From NCBI GenBank assembly GCA_905236815.1, contig CAJOPE010000026.1:1-64000 (forward strand): a stretch of DNA of 64,000 nt, in the 5' to 3' direction. This document shows, piece by piece, positions 20,635 to 64,000 of the stretch. The notes below the pieces were generated by a model, which ran no database searches, was not told the origin of the DNA, and saw nothing but the letters and a program-made list of their open reading frames with translations. Both the position numbers and the translations under genes were made by a program. Within the stretch, counting starts at the first letter, position 1, and every line of letters starts with the position of its first letter. The DNA is from an uncultured Prevotella sp. (GTDB taxonomy: Bacteria; Bacteroidota; Bacteroidia; Bacteroidales; Bacteroidaceae).

Positions 20635-21486
20635 ATGTTAAGCGTAGATCAATTAGAAGACGAACTTCTGGAATTAGCTTTTGCAGAAGATATTGGTGAT
20701 GGTGATCATACAACTCTCTGTTGTATTCCTGAGGATGCAATGGGCAAGAGTCATCTGCTTGTAAAGGAAGAAGGTATTCTTGCTGGTGTAGCACTGGCTC
20801 GCAAGGTTTTTGATAAATTTGATCCATCTATGCAGATGGAGGTTTTTATCGAGGATGGTGCACACGTAAAGCCAGGTGATATTGCTTTTGTTGTAACAGG
20901 TAAGACACGTTCATTGCTTCAGACAGAGCGCATTATGCTCAATATTATGCAGCGTATGAGTGGAATTGCCACAATGACAAATAAATATGTGAAATTGCTC
21001 GAAGGAACTGGTTGCCATGTACTTGATACCCGCAAGACTACACCAGGTCTTCGTATGATCGAGAAGCAGGCTGTAAAGATTGGTGGTGGTATGAATCATC
21101 GTATTGGCTTGTTTGATATGATTCTTCTCAAGGATAACCACATCGATTTTGCTGGTGGTATCGAGAACGCTATTGATCGTTGTCATGAGTATCTTCAGAA
21201 AAAAGGTCTTGATATAAAGATAGAAATTGAGGTTCGTGACTTTGATGAGCTGAACCGAGTACTCACTAAGGGTGGTGTTCATCGTGTAATGCTCGATAAC
21301 TTCAGTGTAGCTGATACCAAGAAGGCTGTAGATTTGATTAATCATCGTCTTGAGGTTGAATCATCTGGCGGTATCACCTATGATACAATTCGTGGCTATG
21401 CAGAACAAGGTGTTGATTTCATTTCAGTAGGTGCACTCACACATTCCGTAAAGGGACTTGACATGAGTTTTAAGGCTTGTGACTAA
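20635..21486 (+). CDS. nadC: Nicotinate-nucleotide pyrophosphorylase (carboxylating)
   Basis: EDIGDGDHT, LDTRKTTPGLR, LLKDNHI motifs. Confidence 0.95.
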   Translation: MLSVDQLEDELLELAFAEDIGDGDHTTLCCIPEDAMGKSHLLVKEEGILAGVALARKVFDKFDPSMQMEVFIEDGAHVKPGDIAFVVTGKTRSLLQTERIMLNIMQRMSGIATMTNKYVKLLEGTGCHVLDTRKTTPGLRMIEKQAVKIGGGMNHRIGLFDMILLKDNHIDFAGGIENAIDRCHEYLQKKGLDIKIEIEVRDFDELNRVLTKGGVHRVMLDNFSVADTKKAVDLINHRLEVESSGGITYDTIRGYAEQGVDFISVGALTHSVKGLDMSFKACD

Positions 21487-26229: not shown

Positions 26230-28716
26230 TTATTCCACTGGAATTGTAAAAGTTCCTTTCAATTTTTTGTTAGTTTTGTCCTTAACAACCATTTGAAGAG
26301 TTCCTGGACTATCTTTTGCTTGAAGCGTTACCACCAACTTTCCAGAAAAGAGTTTCATTGTTGGTTGGGTGAATGATTCCAAAGAAGTGGCATCTCCATT
26401 GCAAACAGCCTTAAACGAACCTGCTCCTTTCACTTCAAAAGAGAGGGCATCATCAGCAGAAGGCACCTCTACTCCATTCTTGTCGATAATCGAGATGGTG
26501 ATGTAAACTAAATCCTCGCCATCAGCTTTCAGACTAGATCGATCGGCTTCCATCTTTATCGCATTTGGCTTTCCTGCAGTCTTTACCACTTGTTCGCCAG
26601 CCTTGTTGCCTTGCGAATCATAAGCTACTACTTTCAGTTCACCTGGCTCGTATTTTACATCCTTCCACATCAGCCTATAGCGGGCAGCACGGCGTTCTGC
26701 ATCAGCAGGTTTAGCTGCCTTTCCACAGAAAATCTCTCCATCATTCTCAACTTTTTGCTTTGAAATTCTGCCTTGTGACTTGCCATTCACAAAAAGCTCT
26801 GCCGATGGATAATCTGTATAACAGAAAACAGGCGTTACTTTTCCTATACGATCTGGCCATGTCCAATGAGGCAACAAATGAAGGGTATGCTCTTGTGTAT
26901 TCCATTTTGAGCGATAGAGGTAGTAGCGATCCTTTGGAAGTCCTGCAAGATCGACAGCACCAAAATAGCTGCTTCGGCTTGGCCAATACTCATCGTATGG
27001 AGTAGGTTCACCAAGATAATCAATACCCGTCCAGATGAATTGGCCGATATAGTATGGAGCATCGTCCTCAGCGATAAAATCTTCCTCAGGAAGGTTACTC
27101 CAACTGCACCATTGAGTATCGTAGCTGCTTAGCTGTCCATCAGGATAAGTCTTGCTGTTATTCCATTCTAATGGGAATTTGTAAATACCTCTACTACTTA
27201 CAGTTGATGCTGTTTCGGAGCCTAAAAGGAAGGCCTTAGGCAGCTGTTTGATGTTGCGAGGATATTTATAAACACGATAGTTGAAGCCCGGAACATCCAT
27301 TGTCTGTGCAAAGCCTGATTTCAAGGCTGATTCCGCCCTATCCATTCCTTGAGTGACAGGTGTGAGTGGGTCGAGTGTGTGACAAAGATTTTGCAATCTC
27401 TCAGCAATCTTTCGACCTTCCTCACTCCACTGTTCTGGAATTTCATTTCCAATACTCCACATCACAAGACTTGGGTGATTGCGGTTGGCAAGTATCAGGT
27501 TGGTGATATCCTTGTCGGCCCACTCCTTGAAGTTTCGGGCATAGCCATTTTTGCATTTTGGATAAATCCACATATCGAAACTCTCTGCCATCACCATCAT
27601 GCCAAGGGAGTCATAAACTTCCATCTGCATCTGACTAGGCATATTGTGAGAAGTTCGAATGGCATCTGCACCCATATCTTTCATCAACTTAACTTGACGA
27701 ATTAGTGCAGCTTTGTTGATAGCAGCACCTAAAGGTCCTAGATCGTGATGTAAGCAGACTCCCTTGATACGGCGACTCTTTCCATTGAGTTGGAAACCAT
27801 TAATGCTATCAACCTTTATAGTGCGCAACCCCACTTTCTTAATGAGTTTATCAACCACCTTGCCGTCTTTTCCTAGAAGCTGGAGTTCCAAGGTATATCG
27901 GTAAGGATCTTCAGGAGACCATAGGTGGGGCTTACTAACAAAAAAGTTATAATGATCGGCTACATTTTTTGCTGGAACATCTGTAGCTGCATTCTGTATT
28001 TTCCCATTATCATCCTTTAGGCAGATATAAGTGCGGTAATCTTCATTTTCAGGATTTTCGATTTTGAAACTGACATTTAAAAATGCAACTTCCTCATCCG
28101 ACCATCCACCTCCATTTGTGCGATAGTGGCCTATGCTATCTGTTCGAACAGAAAGTCCCCATTCGTCAAAATGCAATTTTGGTAAACTTGCAACAGTAAC
28201 AGGACGATAAAGTCCGGCGCCAGGATACCATCTACTGCTCTCTTCACGATTTTTAAGATGTACCACCACTTCATTTTTGCCTTTATGCAGATAAGTAGAA
28301 GCATCTATGCGGAAAGCATTATATCCATAGGCCCAATATCCAGCTTTTTCTTTATTAATATAAACAGTTGGCTCCGACATTGCACCATCAAATTGCAGTT
28401 GATGAAAAGGCAATTGATTATCGATGTTAAGGGTAGTACGATACCATCCCTCGCCTATCCAAGGCAATGCGCCAGATCGACCCGACTTCTCTGTGGCGGT
28501 CTTTTCGCCATTTTGTACAATAGCAACATTCTGCAAGTCCCATTTCTTGTCGAATGGTCCTGAGATAGCCCAGTCATGTGGTATCGATACTTTTTCCCAA
28601 TGGATGCTATCACGAGAGAATTCCCATTGTTTCAGGGAAATAACGTTTCTTGTCTGTGCATTTAGCGCAGAGGAAGCCCCCATTGCAAAATATAAACTTA
28701 TCAGTCGAAGATTCAT
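26230..28716 (-). CDS. Glycoside hydrolase family 2 beta-galactosidase (DUF4982 type)
   Basis: 828 aa; signal peptide; HPSLVMWSIGNEIPEQW acid/base region; LLGSETAS nucleophile region. Confidence 0.92.
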   Translation of the reverse strand: MNLRLISLYFAMGASSALNAQTRNVISLKQWEFSRDSIHWEKVSIPHDWAISGPFDKKWDLQNVAIVQNGEKTATEKSGRSGALPWIGEGWYRTTLNIDNQLPFHQLQFDGAMSEPTVYINKEKAGYWAYGYNAFRIDASTYLHKGKNEVVVHLKNREESSRWYPGAGLYRPVTVASLPKLHFDEWGLSVRTDSIGHYRTNGGGWSDEEVAFLNVSFKIENPENEDYRTYICLKDDNGKIQNAATDVPAKNVADHYNFFVSKPHLWSPEDPYRYTLELQLLGKDGKVVDKLIKKVGLRTIKVDSINGFQLNGKSRRIKGVCLHHDLGPLGAAINKAALIRQVKLMKDMGADAIRTSHNMPSQMQMEVYDSLGMMVMAESFDMWIYPKCKNGYARNFKEWADKDITNLILANRNHPSLVMWSIGNEIPEQWSEEGRKIAERLQNLCHTLDPLTPVTQGMDRAESALKSGFAQTMDVPGFNYRVYKYPRNIKQLPKAFLLGSETASTVSSRGIYKFPLEWNNSKTYPDGQLSSYDTQWCSWSNLPEEDFIAEDDAPYYIGQFIWTGIDYLGEPTPYDEYWPSRSSYFGAVDLAGLPKDRYYLYRSKWNTQEHTLHLLPHWTWPDRIGKVTPVFCYTDYPSAELFVNGKSQGRISKQKVENDGEIFCGKAAKPADAERRAARYRLMWKDVKYEPGELKVVAYDSQGNKAGEQVVKTAGKPNAIKMEADRSSLKADGEDLVYITISIIDKNGVEVPSADDALSFEVKGAGSFKAVCNGDATSLESFTQPTMKLFSGKLVVTLQAKDSPGTLQMVVKDKTNKKLKGTFTIPVE

Positions 28717-28982: not shown

Positions 28983-29159
28983 ATGCATTTTATGAATAGA
29001 CTATTTATGAAAAATGTATTCTTTTTTTGTGATAATTCTTTCTTTAGTGTGAACTCAATGAGATATTGATAAGAAACTCGTTGTATCATTCACAGAAAGG
29101 AAAGTTCTATTCCTTTGATTATATATGACTTAATCAAGGAAATAAGCCTTATACATAAT

Positions 29160-29221
29160 ATGAAACGATCGTTTGACATTATGTGAAACGGTCGTTTAAC
29201 ATTATATGAAACGGTCGTTTC
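29160..29221. repeat. Three tandem 23-bp repeats, each with palindromic core AAACG(A/G)TCGTTT
   Basis: GAAACG[AG]TCGTTT starts at 29162, 29185 and 29208; exact 23-bp period. Confidence 0.9.
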
Positions 29222-29337
29222 ATATTGTAAAAACAAGCCTTCTTAATGGAATATAAATCAATAATGAGAACGGAATTCTGTAGCTTTGAAAATAATAAAG
29301 TCCCTCCTTATCAATTTCTTTATGGACCATATACAAA

Positions 29338-29371
29338 AAATCCTCCATCAAATCGAATTGATGGAGGATTT
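29338..29371 (-). terminator. Intrinsic terminator of the TPR gene
   Basis: Perfect 14-bp stem AAATCCTCCATCAA / TTGATGGAGGATTT. Confidence 0.85.
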
Positions 29372-29389
29372 ATATTATTATGTTATAAT

Positions 29390-30604
29390 TTACATATCAG
29401 CTTTTGCAGCCTGAGTCTTAGGATCATTCTCACCATATCTTGCATAGTAAGAATTGTAACGGAAACGGCCCCAAGAAACCTTCTGCTGATCAGGATCTAG
29501 CTCCTTAGCCTTTTCGTAGTTCTTAATAGCCTCTTCCAACAATACATTTGCTGTAGTCTTTGCTGGTGCATCAGAAGCACGGTTCTGGAAACAAGCGCCA
29601 ATGTAGAAGTATGGGAATGGGCTCTCTGGATCTGCCTCCTGTGCCTTCTTGAAGGTAGCAATAGCATCCTGCCATGCACGCTCATCGAACTGAGAGTTAC
29701 CCTTCAAAATCAATGCAACAAAATTCTTTGGATCCTTTGCCAAAGTCTGGTCGAGCAAAGTTTTTGCAGCTGCAAGACCATCAAGTTTCTTAGTTACATT
29801 ATAAAGGTTCTCCAAAACAACCTGGTTAGTTGGATTCTCCTCGAAAACCTGAATAAGGTTGTTCTTATACTTTATAGAGTCTTCTTTTGATGTAAGACCC
29901 TCGCTCATTGCAGCGATCTTAAGATCGAAAGCTTTTTTCTTATATTCCTGATCCTGCATAGCGAATTCTGCGTACTTTCCTACCAAATCAAACTTCTTCT
30001 GCTGATAAGCAAAAGCAGCTGTATAGAAAGCAACCTGACCAAGGAACTGCTTCTCATTCTCACTGCTGTAATCCTTGAAGAAAGGCTCGTTCTTTGCATC
30101 AAGATAACTACCCCAATACTTCAAAGCCTTTACTTGGTCGCCTGAGATAGCATAAGGATTACCACATAAAATCAGGTTCTCAAAAGCTGGCTTAACTCGC
30201 TCAAAGTTATTTGCGAATCTTGGCTTGATTTTGCCTTTTGAATTTGGTTCGTTATCATAAAGAAAACACTGCTCGGCTGCCTTAATAGCATTGATAGCTG
30301 CATCACCCATAGCAATTGTATCAATAGCTTCTACTTTGTCTTTCTGACCCTGCTGAATAAGGAATTGATTTGTACCAATCTTTGATGCCTGTGCTTGATA
30401 ATCAGCAAGCGCAATATCTACAAGATGGTTATAGGCTGTGGCCTTCTCCTCTGATCCCTGAAGATCTTCCATTGCAGAATTAAGTACATCGAGGCATTCA
30501 GCATAGTTCTTAGAGCCAAGGATAGCTTTCAGAGCTGGACTTACACCTGCAAACGCGGCAGATGTGCTTAACATCACTAAAGCCGCAACAAATAGCTTTT
30601 TCAT
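29390..30604 (-). CDS. TPR-repeat protein with signal peptide
   Basis: 404 aa; MKKLFVAALVMLSTSAAFA signal peptide; TPR-like repeats. Confidence 0.85.
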   Translation of the reverse strand: MKKLFVAALVMLSTSAAFAGVSPALKAILGSKNYAECLDVLNSAMEDLQGSEEKATAYNHLVDIALADYQAQASKIGTNQFLIQQGQKDKVEAIDTIAMGDAAINAIKAAEQCFLYDNEPNSKGKIKPRFANNFERVKPAFENLILCGNPYAISGDQVKALKYWGSYLDAKNEPFFKDYSSENEKQFLGQVAFYTAAFAYQQKKFDLVGKYAEFAMQDQEYKKKAFDLKIAAMSEGLTSKEDSIKYKNNLIQVFEENPTNQVVLENLYNVTKKLDGLAAAKTLLDQTLAKDPKNFVALILKGNSQFDERAWQDAIATFKKAQEADPESPFPYFYIGACFQNRASDAPAKTTANVLLEEAIKNYEKAKELDPDQQKVSWGRFRYNSYYARYGENDPKTQAAKADM

Positions 30605-56308: not shown

Positions 56309-57370
56309 TTAAGCGTTCTTGATGTAGTTAACGATCCACTCGCCTACTTCAGTTGTGCCATACTGAGCACCACCCTCAACCTGGATCTCAGGTGTACGAA
56401 CATTAGCATCGAGAGAAGCATCAACAGCCTTGCGAATCATTGCACCTTCCTCGTTCAAGCCAAAGTGCTCGAGCAACATTGCTGCAGAGAGAATCTGAGC
56501 TACAGGGTTAGCAAGATTCTTACCTGCTGCCTGTGGCCATGAACCATGAACAGGCTCGAACAATGGTGTATGCTCGCCGAGAGAAGAAGAAGGCTGAAGA
56601 CCCATTGAACCTGTGATACAAGATGTTTCATCGGTAAGGATATCACCGAAAGTATTCTCTGTTACAATTACATCGAAGAATGTTGGTTCTGTCAACACAC
56701 GCATAGAAGCATTGTCGATGAACATATAATCAACTGTAACCTCTGGGAACTGAGGTTCCATCTCCTTTGCAATCTGGCGCCACAAACGTGAACTTGCCAA
56801 AACGTTAGCCTTATCAACTACAGTGAGGTGCTTATTGCGCTTCATTGCGAAATCAAAAGCAACCTTGAGGATACGCTCAATCTCTGGACGATAGTAGATA
56901 TCTGTATCGTATGCCTTGTCATTGTCCTGATACTTCTCACCGAAGTACATACCGCCTGTAAGCTCGCGAATTACTACGAAATCAGCACCCTTCAGCAACT
57001 CATCCTTCAAAGGACTCTTGTGAAGAAGGCAATCGAATGTTGCAACTGGACGAACATTAGCGAACAAACCGAGTTTCTTACGCATTGCAAGCAAGCCCTG
57101 CTCAGGACGAACCTTGGCTGTAGGATCGTTATCGAAACGAGGATCACCTACTGCTGCGAACAATACAGCATCAGCATCCATACAAGTCTGGAATGTATCC
57201 TCAGGGAAAGGATCGCCTACAGCGTCAATACCATGAGCACCGCAGATAGCCTCCTTATATGTAAAGTTGTGACCAAACTTGGCTGCAATAGCGTCCATTA
57301 CTGCAATACCTTGTTTCATAATCTCAGGTCCAATTCCATCACCAGGAAGGACTGCAATCTTTAAATCCAT
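56309..57370 (-). CDS. leuB: 3-isopropylmalate dehydrogenase
   Basis: [36 protein letters not shown]. Confidence 0.96.
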
Positions 57371-57386: not shown

Positions 57387-58994
57387 TTAAAATCCATTCT
57401 TTAAACTATCAAACTTCTCTTTGTGAAGTTCTGGTGTGAGCACCTCTCTATCGTCTTCGGATACTTGTGAAGCATATTCCAACATATTCAACATTTTTAC
57501 TGTTGCCTTGATAGCTGCCTCAGTCTGGTCTGCATCGAGTCCCTTGGTGCGCAAAACACTGCCATCATCCTTTCGCCAGGTAATGATAGTCTGCACCAAA
57601 GCATCTGTACGACCACCTGGTGGAATACTTACTGCATAGTTGTCCAAACGAGGGAACGTGCGATTGAGGTTCTCCTTGTAGATCTTGCGAAGTGCCTTTA
57701 CAAAGGCATCATACTGACCATCTCCTGTAGAATCAGCTTCATACTGATTTCCATCGATCTCTACTTTAAGACTTGCTATAGGCTTCAGACCATAAGAGGT
57801 TGATACCATATAACTTATGAGCTTAACCTTATCCTCAGGAGTATTGTGCTTGAGCACATCACTTACAATGTATGGAAGATCCTCCTGAGAGATGAGTTCC
57901 TTGCGATCGCCAAGTTCTGTGATACGTTTGGTAACAGCCTTTGTCTGTTCCAGTGTAAGCTGTAAGCCGAGGTCATTAAGATTCTGAATGATGTTGGCCT
58001 TACCCGAGTTCTTACCCAGTGCATACTCACGCTTACGGCCGAAACGCTCAGGCTTCAGGTCGTTGCTATAAAGCTGACCTTTCTTGTCGCCATCCGCATG
58101 AACACCTGCAACCTGAGTAAAGACATTCTCGCCTACCACCGGCGCATTAGCAGCTACGGCAATGCCACTATATCCCTCAACGAGATGAGAAGCATCTACC
58201 ATATAATTCTCATTGATATTGGTCTTTACACCTAGCATATCGTGCAGCATTACCTGCACAGAAGCCATTGGTGCATTACCACAGCGCTCACCTAATCCGT
58301 TCACTGTAACATGCAGGCCATGAACACCTGCTTTCACAGCTGCCAGAGAGTCGGCCACCGCCATATCATAATCGTTGTGTGCATGGAAGTCGAACAAGCA
58401 GTTTGGCCACATCTGCACCATCTTTGTGATGTATTCATCCACCTCGAGAGGATTCAGAATACCTAAAGTATCTGGCAGCAGAAAGCGATGGATGTTCGCA
58501 CCACTCAAGGCATTCATTACCTGCTCCACGTATTCAGGAGAATTCTTCATACCTCCCGACCAGTCCTCAAGATAGAGATTCACCTTCATACCTACCTTGT
58601 CAGCATAATCAAGTACTCGGAAAATGTCCTCGATATGCTCACGTGGAGTTTTCTTCAACTGCTGAGAGCAGTGACGAAGGCTACCTTTGGCAAGCAGATT
58701 GATTACCTGACCGCCACATTCACGAATCCAGTCGATAGACAAGTTTCCATCTACAAATCCAAGAACCTCGACCTTGTCAAGTTTTCCTTCTGCATCTGCC
58801 GCCTGGCAGATCATCTTTACAGCATCCTTCTCTCCCTGAGAGACACGTGCTGAAGCTACCTCTATTCGATCCACCCCAACATCGTGGAGCAGATAGCGGG
58901 CAATCATCAGTTTCTCGTGTGGGAGAAAGGATACGCCATTGGTCTGTTCTCCATCCCGAAGGGTGGAATCCATTATTTCTACTGAACTATTCAA
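57387..58994 (-). CDS. LeuA paralogue, probable (R)-citramalate synthase-type enzyme
   Basis: 535 aa; MDSTLRDGEQTNGVSF, DFHAHNDYDMAVA, C-terminal regulatory domain; distinct from the leuA at 61064. Confidence 0.8.
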   Translation of the reverse strand: MNSSVEIMDSTLRDGEQTNGVSFLPHEKLMIARYLLHDVGVDRIEVASARVSQGEKDAVKMICQAADAEGKLDKVEVLGFVDGNLSIDWIRECGGQVINLLAKGSLRHCSQQLKKTPREHIEDIFRVLDYADKVGMKVNLYLEDWSGGMKNSPEYVEQVMNALSGANIHRFLLPDTLGILNPLEVDEYITKMVQMWPNCLFDFHAHNDYDMAVADSLAAVKAGVHGLHVTVNGLGERCGNAPMASVQVMLHDMLGVKTNINENYMVDASHLVEGYSGIAVAANAPVVGENVFTQVAGVHADGDKKGQLYSNDLKPERFGRKREYALGKNSGKANIIQNLNDLGLQLTLEQTKAVTKRITELGDRKELISQEDLPYIVSDVLKHNTPEDKVKLISYMVSTSYGLKPIASLKVEIDGNQYEADSTGDGQYDAFVKALRKIYKENLNRTFPRLDNYAVSIPPGGRTDALVQTIITWRKDDGSVLRTKGLDADQTEAAIKATVKMLNMLEYASQVSEDDREVLTPELHKEKFDSLKNGF

Positions 58995-59006
58995 AACGTA
59001 AAATCT

Positions 59007-59600
59007 TTATTTGTTAGCTGCTTCCCAAGCCTCTACCTTATCGCAGTTCTGCACGAGGAAGTCTACATCATCAAGACCATTCATCAAGCAATGCTTTTTA
59101 TAGCCGTTGATTTCGAACTTCTCGCTCTTGCCTGTTGCAAGATTTGTAACAGTCTGGTTAGGAAGATCCACCTTTACCTGCATAGCATGATTGCCGTCGA
59201 TGCTTTCAAAGAGTTCCTTGAGGAAATCTTCACTTACAACTACAGGCAACACAAAGTTGTTCAACTCATTATTCTTGTGGATATCTGCAAAGAATGAACT
59301 GATAACCACACGGATGCCATAGCCTGCAATTGCCCAGGCAGCATGCTCACGAGAGGAACCTGAACCGAAGTTCTTTCCTGCTACAAGGATAACAGACTCC
59401 TTGAAGTCTGGATTGTTAAGCACGAACTCCTTCTTTTCGCTGCCGTCGTTGTTGAAACGCCAATCGTGGAAAAGATAAGGTCCAAAGCCATCCTTCTGGG
59501 TGAGCTTCAGATAACGTGCAGGGATAATCTGGTCGGTATCTACATTCTCTAATGGAAGAGGAATGCAGGTGGATGTTATAACGTCAAATTTCTGTTTCAT
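59007..59600 (-). CDS. leuD: 3-isopropylmalate dehydratase small subunit
   Basis: ENVDTDQIIPARYL, GKNFGSGSSREHAAWAI. Confidence 0.96.
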   Translation of the reverse strand: MKQKFDVITSTCIPLPLENVDTDQIIPARYLKLTQKDGFGPYLFHDWRFNNDGSEKKEFVLNNPDFKESVILVAGKNFGSGSSREHAAWAIAGYGIRVVISSFFADIHKNNELNNFVLPVVVSEDFLKELFESIDGNHAMQVKVDLPNQTVTNLATGKSEKFEINGYKKHCLMNGLDDVDFLVQNCDKVEAWEAANK

Positions 59601-59610
59601 TGCTTTAAAA

Positions 59611-61002
59611 TTAAAGGGTTCTTGGATCGGTAATCTTACCTGTCAATGCGGCAGCTGCTACTACAAGTGGAGAAGCAAGGATGGTACGTGAACCTGGTCC
59701 CTGACGACCCTCGAAGTTACGGTTGCTGGTAGATACAGAATACTTGCCTGCAGGAATCTTATCGTCGTTCATTGCCAAGCAAGCAGAGCATCCTGGCTGA
59801 CGAATCTCGAAGCCTGCTGCCTCTACGATCTTGTCGATACCCTCGTCCTTGATCTGCTTTGCTACGAGGTGTGAACCTGGTACTAACCAAGCTGTTACGT
59901 TGTCTGCCTTCTTCTTTCCCTTTACTACTTCAGCGAAAGCGCGGAAGTCCTCAATACGACCATTGGTACAAGCACCGAGGAATACATAATCGATTGGATG
60001 ACCCAGAAGTTTCTCGCCTGGTTCAAAGCCCATATAGTTAAGAGATTTCTTGAATCCAGGAATCTCGTTCTCAGGAATCTGATCCAATGTAGGAATAGTC
60101 TCTGTGATACCGATACCCATACCAGGGTTAGTTCCATAAGTGATGCGTGGCTCGATGTCGGCAGCATCGAAAGTGATTTCCTTGTCGAAAACAGCATCGT
60201 CGCCACTCTTCAGAGTCTTCCAATAAGCTACTGCCTTATCCCATTCCTCACCCTTAGGTGCATACTCGCGACCCTTGATATATTCGAATGTTGTCTCGTC
60301 TGGTGCGATGAATCCACCACGAGCTCCCATCTCGATAGAGAGGTTGCAGAGAGTGAGACGTCCATCCATACTCATATTCTTAATAACATCACCTGCATAC
60401 TCTACGAAATAGCCAGTTGCACCAGATGTAGAAAGCTTGCTCATCATGTAAAGAGCAACATCCTTAGCGGTAACACCAGCCTGAAGAGTACCTGTGAAGT
60501 TGATGCGCATAGACTTTGGCTTAGACTGGAGGATACACTGAGAAGCGAGTACCATCTCTACCTCTGATGTACCAATTCCGAAAGCCACAGCACCCATCGC
60601 ACCGTGAGTAGATGTATGTGAGTCACCACAAACAATAGTCATACCAGGAAGAGAAAGACCCTTCTCTGGACCAACTACATGGATGATACCATTATCCTTC
60701 GTATTGTATTTGAATTCGGTTACACCAAATTCAGCACAGTTCTTGTCGAGGGTCTCAACCTGATGACGACCAACTGGGTCTGCAATAGGCTGATCCTGAT
60801 CGTGAGTCTGTGTATTGTGGTCAGGCATTGCGAAAACATGGTCAGGACGGAAAACCTTCAGTCCTCTTGTGCGCAAACCTTCGAAAGCCTGGGCTGTTGT
60901 AACTTCGTGGCAATACAAGCGGTCGATATAAAGCTGTGTAGGACCATCTTCGACGATCTGCACAACGTGCTTGTCCCAAATCTTATCAAATAATGTATTC
61001 AT
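59611..61002 (-). CDS. leuC: 3-isopropylmalate dehydratase large subunit
   Basis: [38 protein letters not shown]. Confidence 0.96.
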
Positions 61003-61063: not shown

Positions 61064-62563
61064 TTAATTTCTAAATTTGTTTATACAATCAATATATGCT
61101 TCTACAGAAGCGGTTACAATGTCGGTGTCGGCACCAAATCCATAGTAGAGATGACCATCGTATTCCACCTGCATGTGTACTTTACCTACATCATCAGATC
61201 CCTTGTCGATAGCCTGAATTGTGAATTCCTTCAAGGTCATGTTCTTTGTGATGATCTTCTTCAAGGCACTGATAGCTGCATCTACAGGACCATTGCCGGT
61301 TGATGAATCCTCAAATTTCTGTCCTGCGATATCCAAACCGATAGAAGCTACACTCTTGAAGCCCTTTCCTGTTGTAACCTGAAGATAGTCGAGTGTAACA
61401 GCATGAGTATCAGCGTTATTGGCACCAGCCAACATCAATACGTCATCGTCAGTTACTTCCTTCTTCTTGTCGGCCAATACAAGGAACTGCTTATAGAGCT
61501 TGTCAAGCTTCTCATCATCCTCGATCTTCACACCATTTACTTCCAAACGGTATTTCAAGGCTGCACGACCAGAACGAGCGGTCAATACAATTGCGTTGTC
61601 ATCCAAACCAACATCCTTTGGATCCATGATCTCATAGGTCTGAACATTCTTCAGCACACCATCCTGGTGAATACCACTTGAGTGAGCAAAAGCATTTCTA
61701 CCTACGATTGCCTTGTTTGGCTGAACAGGCATGTTCATCAAACTAGACACCATACGAGAAGTTGGAACAATCTTAGAGGTATTAATATTTGTATCAATGC
61801 CGATGTGCTTGTGGCACTTCAGAATCATAGCAATCTCTTCAAGAGAAGTGTTACCCGCACGTTCACCAATACCATTGATAGTAACCTCAACCTGTCGTGC
61901 GCCATTCAGCACACCCTGAAGGGTATTGGCAGTAGCCATACCAAGGTCGTTATGGCAGTGGGTAGAAAGAATAGCCTTGTCCACACCATCCACATGCTCC
62001 ATCAGATACTTAATCTTATCGCCATACTCATCAGGCATACAATAGCCTGTAGTATCTGGAATATTCACAACAGTAGCACCCGCCTTGATAACGGCCTCAA
62101 CCACTCTTGCCAGATACTCATTGTCGGTACGACCAGCATCCTCAGCATAGAACTCTACATCCTCAACATACTTCTTTGCATATTTTACCGCAGCAACAGC
62201 ACGCTCGATAATCTCCTCACGATTGCTATTAAACTTATATTTAATATGACTGTCGGAAGTACCGATACCTGTATGAATTCTCTTACGCTTGGCATACTTT
62301 AGCGCCTCTGCAGCACAATCAATATCCTTCTCTACTGCACGGGTTAGAGCACAGATAGTAGGCCATGTAACAGCCTTGGAAATCTCTACTACAGAATTGA
62401 AGTCACCAGGACTTGAGATAGGAAAACCAGCCTCGATAACGTCGACACCTAGTTGCTCAAGTTGCTTAGCCACCTGAATTTTCTCCACTGTGTTCAACTG
62501 ACAACCTGGTACCTGCTCGCCATCGCGAAGCGTGGTATCAAAAATGTAAAGTCTATCGCTCAT
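61064..62563 (-). CDS. leuA: 2-isopropylmalate synthase
   Basis: [29 protein letters not shown]-terminal regulatory domain. Confidence 0.95.
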
Positions 62564-62593
62564 TTGTCTCTCAATAAATTAAGTCCAACTAAA

Positions 62594-62626
62594 AAGGCTT
62601 TCACACTTCGGAAGTGAGAAAGCCTT
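62594..62626 (-). terminator. Attenuator (intrinsic terminator in the leuA leader)
   Basis: Minus strand AAGGCTTTCTCACTTC cg GAAGTGTGAAAGCCTTTTT. Confidence 0.85.
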
Positions 62627-62646
62627 AATATCATAGTTCATCAGAG

Positions 62647-62733
62647 CTACACGCATACTTTCTTACTTCCGGCCACTCGTTGCAGTCGAATTCGAATAAT
62701 AATACCTAGTAGGCTCTGTGAATTAATAGTCAT
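62647..62733 (-). CDS. leu operon leader peptide, 28 aa: MTINSQSLLGIIIRIRLQRVAGSKKVCV
   Basis: ATG 62733-62731, TAG 62649-62647; 10 of 28 residues are I/L/V; just upstream of attenuator hairpin and leuA; below ORF-track length cutoff. Confidence 0.8.
   Translation of the reverse strand: MTINSQSLLGIIIRIRLQRVAGSKKVCV
62658..62671 (-). promoter_or_regulatory. Antiterminator segment of leu leader
   Basis: CGGAAGTAAGAAAG on minus strand pairs 13/14 with terminator 5' arm CTTTCTCACTTCCG (62609-62622). Confidence 0.7.
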
Positions 62734-62761
62734 TTTTATTCTTTTTATTTATTTTCGACTG

Positions 62762-62793
62762 CAAAGATATACATTTTTCACGAATTGAACAAA
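62762..62793 (-). promoter_or_regulatory. Promoter of the leu operon
   Basis: Plus-strand CAAAGATA 62762-62769 (TATCTTTG on minus) and CAAA 62790-62793, 20-bp spacer. Confidence 0.75.
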
Positions 62794-62982: not shown

Positions 62983-64000
62983 CTAGAAAGGAAGTGGACC
63001 ATCAGGACCTCCCATTGGCGGAATTGCTGTAAGGTCTGGACCGGGATCCCCTCCTCCATTCATCTTCGAACCAAGAATCTCTCCACCCATATCGCCTGGC
63101 ATTGGAGAGAGGGCTGCATCCTCTGGATTCTGGAAACGAGTAAACTCACCACGGAAGTTAAGCAGCACATCACCAGTTGCACCCTTACGATGCTTAGCGA
63201 TGATAATCTGCGCCATACCGTGAAGGTCGTTACCCTTCTCGTCCTGGAAGATATGATAATATTCTGGTCGATGCACGAAAAGTACCATATCGGCATCCTG
63301 CTCGATGGCTCCAGACTCACGCAAGTCGCTCAACTGTGGACGCTTGCCGTCTATACCCTCACGATTCTCAACCGTACGGTTCAACTGAGAAAGAGCAAGG
63401 ATTGGAATACCCAACTCCTTAGCAAGTCCCTTCAACGAACGCGAAATAGTAGAAACCTCCTCCTGACGGCTACCAAATTTCATACCATTGGCATTCATCA
63501 ACTGAAGGTAGTCGATCATGATAATCTTCACACCTTTCTCTCTCACCAATCGACGAGCCTTAGTACGCAATTCGAATACACTCAAACCTGGAGTGTCATC
63601 TACATAAATAGGTGCATCCTCCAGCTTTCGTATGTTGGTATCAAATCGGTTCCAAGCTGCCTGATCCAATTGTCCGCTCAGAATGTCGTGACCCGAAATC
63701 TCACATACATTGGAGATCAAACGGTTGACAAGCTGAACGTTACTCATTTCTAGAGAGAAGAATCCGATAGGCTCTCGATAATCAACAGCAATGTTCTTGG
63801 CAAGACTCAACGCAAATGAAGTTTTACCCATGGCAGGACGTCCGGCGATAATAACAAGGTCGGCAGGCTGCCAACCGGATGTCATATTATCCAAACCTGT
63901 GTAACCTGTTGGAATACCCGTAAGACCACCCTGGTTCTCGGCAGCAGCCTGCATTGCACGCTGAGCCTCTTTGATTACTGGTAATACCTGGGTATAGTCC
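62983..64000 (-). CDS. dnaB: Replicative DNA helicase DnaB (3' part; 5' end beyond the window)
   Basis: ITAGRPAMGKTSFALSLA Walker A, FSLEMS, DYLQLM; reading frame stays open to window end. Confidence 0.95.
   Translation of the reverse strand, partial: DYTQVLPVIKEAQRAMQAAAENQGGLTGIPTGYTGLDNMTSGWQPADLVIIAGRPAMGKTSFALSLAKNIAVDYREPIGFFSLEMSNVQLVNRLISNVCEISGHDILSGQLDQAAWNRFDTNIRKLEDAPIYVDDTPGLSVFELRTKARRLVREKGVKIIMIDYLQLMNANGMKFGSRQEEVSTISRSLKGLAKELGIPILALSQLNRTVENREGIDGKRPQLSDLRESGAIEQDADMVLFVHRPEYYHIFQDEKGNDLHGMAQIIIAKHRKGATGDVLLNFRGEFTRFQNPEDAALSPMPGDMGGEILGSKMNGGGDPGPDLTAIPPMGGPDGPLPF

Follow-up and report, generated by a model that had tools for sequence, protein, structure and literature searches.

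The leu Locus and Its Leader Region

The window analyzed here is a 64,000-nucleotide stretch of DNA from an uncultured Prevotella sp., and its minus strand carries leucine biosynthesis genes in the order leuA-leuC-leuD-cimA-leuB. The first gene, leuA (61064-62563, with its ATG at 62563), encodes 2-isopropylmalate synthase and matched TIGR00973 above the cut-off, with 670 bits; leuC (59611-61002, TIGR00170), leuD (59007-59600, TIGR00171), and leuB (56309-57370, TIGR00169) also scored above the cut-offs of their models. Between leuD and leuB lies a gene for a second LeuA-like protein (57387-58994), probably the (R)-citramalate synthase CimA; its best NCBIfam match was the CimA model NF042433, at 643 bits, which is below the cut-off of 950 set for this Leptospira-specific model. 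Upstream of the leader region, dnaB lies on the same strand and ends at 62983.

The region preceding leuA contains, on the minus strand, the parts of a candidate transcription attenuator. A Bacteroidota-type promoter, TTTG-N20-TATCTTTG, was read from the sequence at 62793-62762 (TTTG at 62793-62790, 20 nt, and TATCTTTG at 62769-62762), and it is followed by a leader peptide ORF of 28 codons, MTINSQSLLGIIIRIRLQRVAGSKKVCV (62733-62647), closed by a UAG stop at 62649-62647. Within this ORF, the codons CTA CTA (62712-62707), ATT ATT ATT (62703-62695), ATT (62691-62689), and CTG (62685-62683) were assigned as control codons (62712-62683) on the basis of spacing and folding. The predicted 5' arm of the antiterminator, segment 2 (CGGAAGTAAGAAAG, 62671-62658), also lies within the leader ORF, and segment 3 (AAGGCTTTCTCACTTCCG, 62626-62609), defined with alignments A1 and A2, is common to the antiterminator and the terminator. 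Segments 3 and 4 make up an intrinsic terminator hairpin with its U-tract (62626-62591). The hairpin itself, AAGGCTTTCTCACTT/CCG/AAGTGTGAAAGCCTT at 62626-62594, had 14 of 15 pairs formed and a folding energy of -17.0 kcal/mol, and CGGAAGTAAGAAAG was complementary to CTTTCTCACTTCCG at 13 of 14 positions. A simple consensus scan missed this hairpin, the probable reason being an internal U-U mismatch; both folding and covariation do show it. The promoter, the 28-residue leader ORF, and the terminator before leuA that had been proposed in the initial annotation were base-for-base correct, and the complementarity of 13 out of 14 bases between the leader segment and the terminator 5' arm was as it had stated.

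A further complementarity was observed in this region: GCAGTCGAA at the promoter (62761-62753, minus strand) and TTCGACTGC in the leader (62690-62682, minus strand) are perfectly complementary over 9 nt, and their pairing dominates the full-length fold of the window RNA. Stretches of GCAGCCGAA, similar to this pair, are present in many relatives. The first bases of GCAGTCGAA are probably upstream of the transcription start, i.e., untranscribed promoter, and the complementarity may be a start-site effect or chance.

Occurrence of the Element

The leuA loci came from two sets, 100 same-genus genomes and a scan of named genomes that took in Segatella copri, S. baroniae, S. albensis, Hoylesella oralis, and many rumen Prevotella, with some genomes common to both sets. 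A profile built on 42 seeds detected the element before leuA in 114 of 150 Prevotella/Segatella-type loci, which do not stand for 150 independent species, and this occurrence is far above chance. Alignment of these upstream regions showed that the leader ORF and the competing pairings are kept, in line with the initial annotation. The promoter motif TAnnTTTG was at the same position in nearly all aligned relatives, and CGACTG, GGAAGTG, CACTTCC, and GTG were invariant or almost invariant in the alignment of 49 same-genus sequences.

The element was missing from the stretch examined, of up to 700 bp, at 36 of the 150 leuA loci, and several of these have a promoter directly upstream of leuA, indicating that the element is dispensable in some lineages. 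Upstream of leuA, two of the loci scored as element-less, L013 and L191, retain the end of a hairpin resembling GTGGGAAATTTTTTTT or GTGTGAGAGGCTTTT; these hairpins are perhaps decayed or diverged attenuators, with the terminator as the remnant.

The covariance model R1 scored the window copy, which is one of its training members, at 112.9 bits. At an E-value of 0.01, R1 matched 211 of 299 family genomes and 90 of 295 order genomes, tallies that overstate the element, as some of the matches scoring under about 37 bits are plain terminators. When the weak matches (about 22-37 bits) were inspected, several looked like ordinary terminators (window 29333-29445, L138, L144, L146, L298-L301, L303, and L304), and the matches found on the opposite strand at true sites are due to the palindromic terminator. 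Within the order Bacteroidales the element occurs repeatedly: of 28 order-level loci (L101-L128), 23 were upstream of leuA and 5 upstream of ilvD-like genes.

Covariation of the Competing Hairpins

Competing terminator and antiterminator hairpins had been predicted in the initial annotation, and both were borne out by covariation, the terminator within the genus and the antiterminator at the level of the order. In the same-genus alignment, 7 of the 12 terminator pairs changed on both sides (35 cells vs. 12.9 in shuffles; 0/500), and the window copy carries one such pair swap, from C-G to G-C, relative to the consensus. The antiterminator formed by segments 2 and 3 was paired in 92.7% of cells across the 49 same-genus sequences, and it gave no covariation signal among them because it is too invariant. 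Across the Bacteroidales (alignment A2), 5 of its 8 pairs showed double-sided changes (13 cells vs. 2.7; 0/500 shuffles); here, as for the terminator, related sequences were counted as separate, and the figures are support, not probabilities. Loci L114 (GCG/CGC/GCG) and L128 (GTAAG/CTTAC/GTAG) showed a coordinated change in all three arms, as expected if segment 3 must pair with both partners.

For a 1:2 protector or pause hairpin, the pairings examined gave no conserved candidate. The AGAGC...GCTCT pairing that had been suggested to close the structure was intact in only 4 of 49 relatives, much like slid controls, and had to be given up; a 5' pairing seen in the full fold draws on bases that are probably untranscribed promoter.

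These data also bear on a simpler reading of the locus, in which the hairpin is the 3' terminator of dnaB and the short ORF is a chance occurrence. The shared strand of dnaB agrees with it, as does the fact that weak R1 matches, such as the one at 29333-29445, can be ordinary gene-end terminators. However, the promoter sits between dnaB and the hairpin, leuA loci of different genera keep the ORF, arm, and spacing, and covariation links the terminator arm to the arm within the ORF. A dnaB terminator is therefore highly improbable.

Leader Frame, Codon Choice, and Spacing

The leader statistics of the candidate attenuator were taken from 81 non-redundant leaders, after leaving out ten odd or unassigned ones of the 114. 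Ile, Leu, and Val made up 46% of the codons from the start to the antiterminator arm vs. 24% in shuffles, a percentage somewhat inflated by picking leaders as ATG-started ORFs that cover the arm, with preference for those rich in these residues; in the other two frames before the arm, the values were 29% and 4.5%. Measured from its first base, the last Leu codon was 15 nt before the arm in 67 leaders and 16 nt before it in 9 (76 of 81), and the stop codon was 5-30 nt past the arm start in all 81, mostly at 21. The arm was in frame 0 in 70 leaders and in frame 1 in 11, with the Ile/Leu frame kept. Because the arm is read in another frame in those 11, it is the bases of the arm that are conserved rather than the peptide tail.

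This observation weighs on the reading that the leader encodes a small protein with its own function, next to an independent terminator. Part of the leader peptide is strongly conserved in the genus (IIIRLQ...GSDKV), as such a protein would be; yet 11 of 81 leaders read the tail in a different frame (...SRK stop) with its bases unchanged, and beyond the genus little of the peptide other than its Leu/Ile richness is retained, so a functional small protein is extremely unlikely.

The ribosome edge was assumed to lie 13 nt from the A-site codon, after established E. coli toeprint distances. Assuming an E. coli-like footprint, the spacing of 15-16 nt would just clear a stalled ribosome, and a terminating ribosome would cover the arm. 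In a folding series with segment 3 just made, the antiterminator had an energy of -18 kcal/mol or stronger with the ribosome edge set at any codon up to the last CTG, and it fell to -15, -10, -8, and -5.6 kcal/mol at the codons that follow. For some codons, the whole free RNA switched between terminator and antiterminator as its minimum-energy structure, suggesting that the outcome depends on co-transcriptional order.

The initial annotation had described a candidate branched-chain amino acid attenuator with stalling at the Leu/Ile codons; this is supported for Leu and Ile, and not for Val. Val codons were located at the antiterminator arm or past it, or none preceded the arm (33 of 81 leaders), and since they sit where stalling no longer helps, the control amino acids would be Leu and Ile. 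The presence of Ile codons in a leu leader would be explained by the probable citramalate synthase of the operon, which would supply the isoleucine pathway via LeuCD and LeuB. With the invariant position excluded, CUA accounted for 38% of leader Leu codons vs. 6% in the long ORFs of the window, and UUA and UUG for 3% and 12%. In enteric bacteria, theory and experiment judged CUA the best codon for a leu attenuator (PMC1183508). The leader Leu codons follow this enteric order, by an analogy that presumes its transfer to Bacteroidota tRNAs.

Related Leaders before Other Amino Acid Genes

Leaders were also detected before an unexpectedly wide range of other amino acid genes. In Bacteroides-like genomes, leuA is preceded by leaders such as MNQMFIHILLCGIIILLSKVSGSECCA, and ilvD by separate leaders that end in HIIRVVVVPSRA; in most of the latter, the last Val codon is 14-15 nt from the antiterminator arm. 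Val/Ile- or Ile/Leu-rich ilvD leaders with the same arm-terminator layout were found at L137, L139, L141, L149, and L152, and further ones at L136, L142, L143, L111, L115, L117, L119, and L123, from Bacteroides-like and other Bacteroidales genomes. No leader was seen at the ilvD of the window's own genome, which has a promoter directly upstream. Of 30 same-genus prephenate dehydratase (pheA) loci, 29 have a Phe/Tyr leader, for example MNKLYASFYYYFYFASNCEAGSCV; a simple scan placed a terminator behind 20 of the pheA leaders, and the arm was complementary to the terminator in nearly all. One of these loci is in the window's own genome (L258, G000 contig 148), where the Phe/Tyr leader MNKLYASFYYYFYFASNCEAGSCV, with arm and terminator, precedes a pheA match at 21469. 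Nothing relevant to the leuA, ilvD, or pheA leaders was found in Rfam at E-values up to 1.

In Bacteroidota outside the Bacteroidales, leaders were found before hisG (HHHH) and trpE (WWWW or WAWFW), and also before ilvA, ilvE, thrA, and an acetolactate-synthase-small-subunit-like gene, each at one or a few loci and with the genes named from recognisable protein starts. These peptide-matched leaders were at L289-L297, L302, and L305; the trpE leaders L292, L296, and L302 had Trp-rich ORFs and terminators, and L290, L293, and L294 appeared to carry tandem attenuators. We give roughly even chances to the broader idea that a simplified leader-peptide attenuation is a main control of Leu/Ile, Val, Phe/Tyr, His, Thr, and Trp synthesis throughout the Bacteroidota. 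In this scheme the leader ORF would contain the arm or end with it, some 15 nt would separate the last control codon from the arm, and there would be no protector hairpin, making read-through the untranslated default; tandem copies before one gene are included.

Proposed Mechanism

The element is very probably a ribosome-mediated transcription attenuator of leuA-leuC-leuD-cimA-leuB that responds to charged tRNA-Leu and tRNA-Ile. This fits the mechanism first proposed for the locus, with conservation of its promoter, leader ORF, antiterminator arm, and terminator, and it is supported by the parallel leaders that match their pathways (Val/Ile for ilvD, Phe/Tyr for pheA, His for hisG, Thr/Ile for thrA, and Trp for trpE). 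Our sequence analysis covers anatomy, conservation, covariation, codon choice, and spacing, and from these we infer translation, stalling, termination, and the response to starvation. Transcription would begin just downstream of 62762, and a ribosome would load on the 28-codon leader. When Leu or Ile is short, the ribosome would stall at the CUA, AUU, or CUG codons with its front edge just short of segment 2 (62671-62658); the free segment 2 would then pair with segment 3, the terminator would be blocked, and the polymerase would reach leuA. When both amino acids are plentiful, the ribosome would run to the UAG at 62649-62647 and mask segment 2, so that segments 3 and 4 would form the terminator and transcription would end near 62591.

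The same alternative hairpins could in principle serve a ribosome-independent leader, i.e., a metabolite riboswitch, a T-box, or a protein-binding attenuator. Such switches also have alternative hairpins and strong base conservation, and in Streptomyces, mutations of the leuA and ilvB leaders had effects at odds with the predictions of classical attenuation (PMC1262725). Against this, searches of Rfam, T-box (RF00230) included, gave no match at E-values up to 1, no conserved aptamer was found, codons and the pairing with segment 3 account for the conserved bases, and codon identity tracks the downstream pathway in the sister leaders. We therefore consider a ribosome-independent switch very unlikely.

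Comparison with Known Leaders

The attenuator proposed here resembles the enteric Leu leader (RF00512) of the leuABCD operons of E. coli and Salmonella in its short Leu-rich ORF, CUA control codons, competing antiterminator and terminator, and downstream leuA. It differs in its mixed Leu and Ile codons, its Bacteroidota promoter, and an antiterminator 5' arm located inside the leader ORF near the stop, and also in that a conserved protector hairpin was not found; the Leu_leader covariance model gave no match at E-values up to 1. Bacteroid-trp RNA (RF01692, PMC2864571) is likewise a predicted cis-regulator in an amino acid operon leader of the same phylum, but it has Trp codons and trp genes, and the leuA leaders searched showed no match to RF01692. 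The Corynebacterium ilvBNC attenuators (PMC11857589, PMC10272879) and, in Staphylococcus aureus, the Leu-rich ilv attenuator (PMC5794164) are reported also to use branched-chain codons in an upstream ORF to regulate biosynthesis genes; they differ in genes, phyla, and sequences, and they were experimentally tested. The actinobacterial LEU element is a leuA leader with a Leu codon run too, but it is a candidate pseudoknot in which this run pairs with the leuA Shine-Dalgarno box, with no terminator or antiterminator (PMC1262725).

The initial annotation had left open whether a Bacteroidales version was already described. No description of the leuA element was found in our literature search, to which most subscription papers were out of reach, and an earlier prediction is possible. 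Vitreschak et al. reportedly also predicted some attenuators in Bacteroidetes/Chlorobi in 2004. For the phylum, precedents do exist: Weinberg et al. listed Bacteroid-trp as a Bacteroidetes cis-regulatory candidate (PMC2864571), the Flavobacterium psychrophilum transcriptome gave strong clues of leader-peptide attenuation upstream of amino acid operons (PMC9723704), and 5' UTR sORFs that recall this mechanism are mentioned in a B. thetaiotaomicron map (PMC7366714). In 2010, a survey was aware of no demonstrated leader-peptide system beyond the Proteobacteria and Actinobacteria (PMC2965389). The principle is classical and was already suspected in Bacteroidota, and the leuA version is absent from Rfam.

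Amino acid synthesis in Prevotella, Segatella, and Bacteroides is important to the ecology of the gut and the rumen, and little is known about the regulation of these genes. The element offers an exact, testable switch and an RNA model missing from Rfam, and its geometry, with 15-16 nt from the last control codon to the antiterminator arm, is usable to find and annotate similar leaders phylum-wide. Elsewhere in the window, at 29155-29230, three near-identical tandem units with the palindrome AAACGACCGTTT or AAACGATCGTTT were observed, possibly operator repeats; the gene downstream of them (26230-28716, minus strand) looks like one for a glycoside hydrolase family 2 protein.
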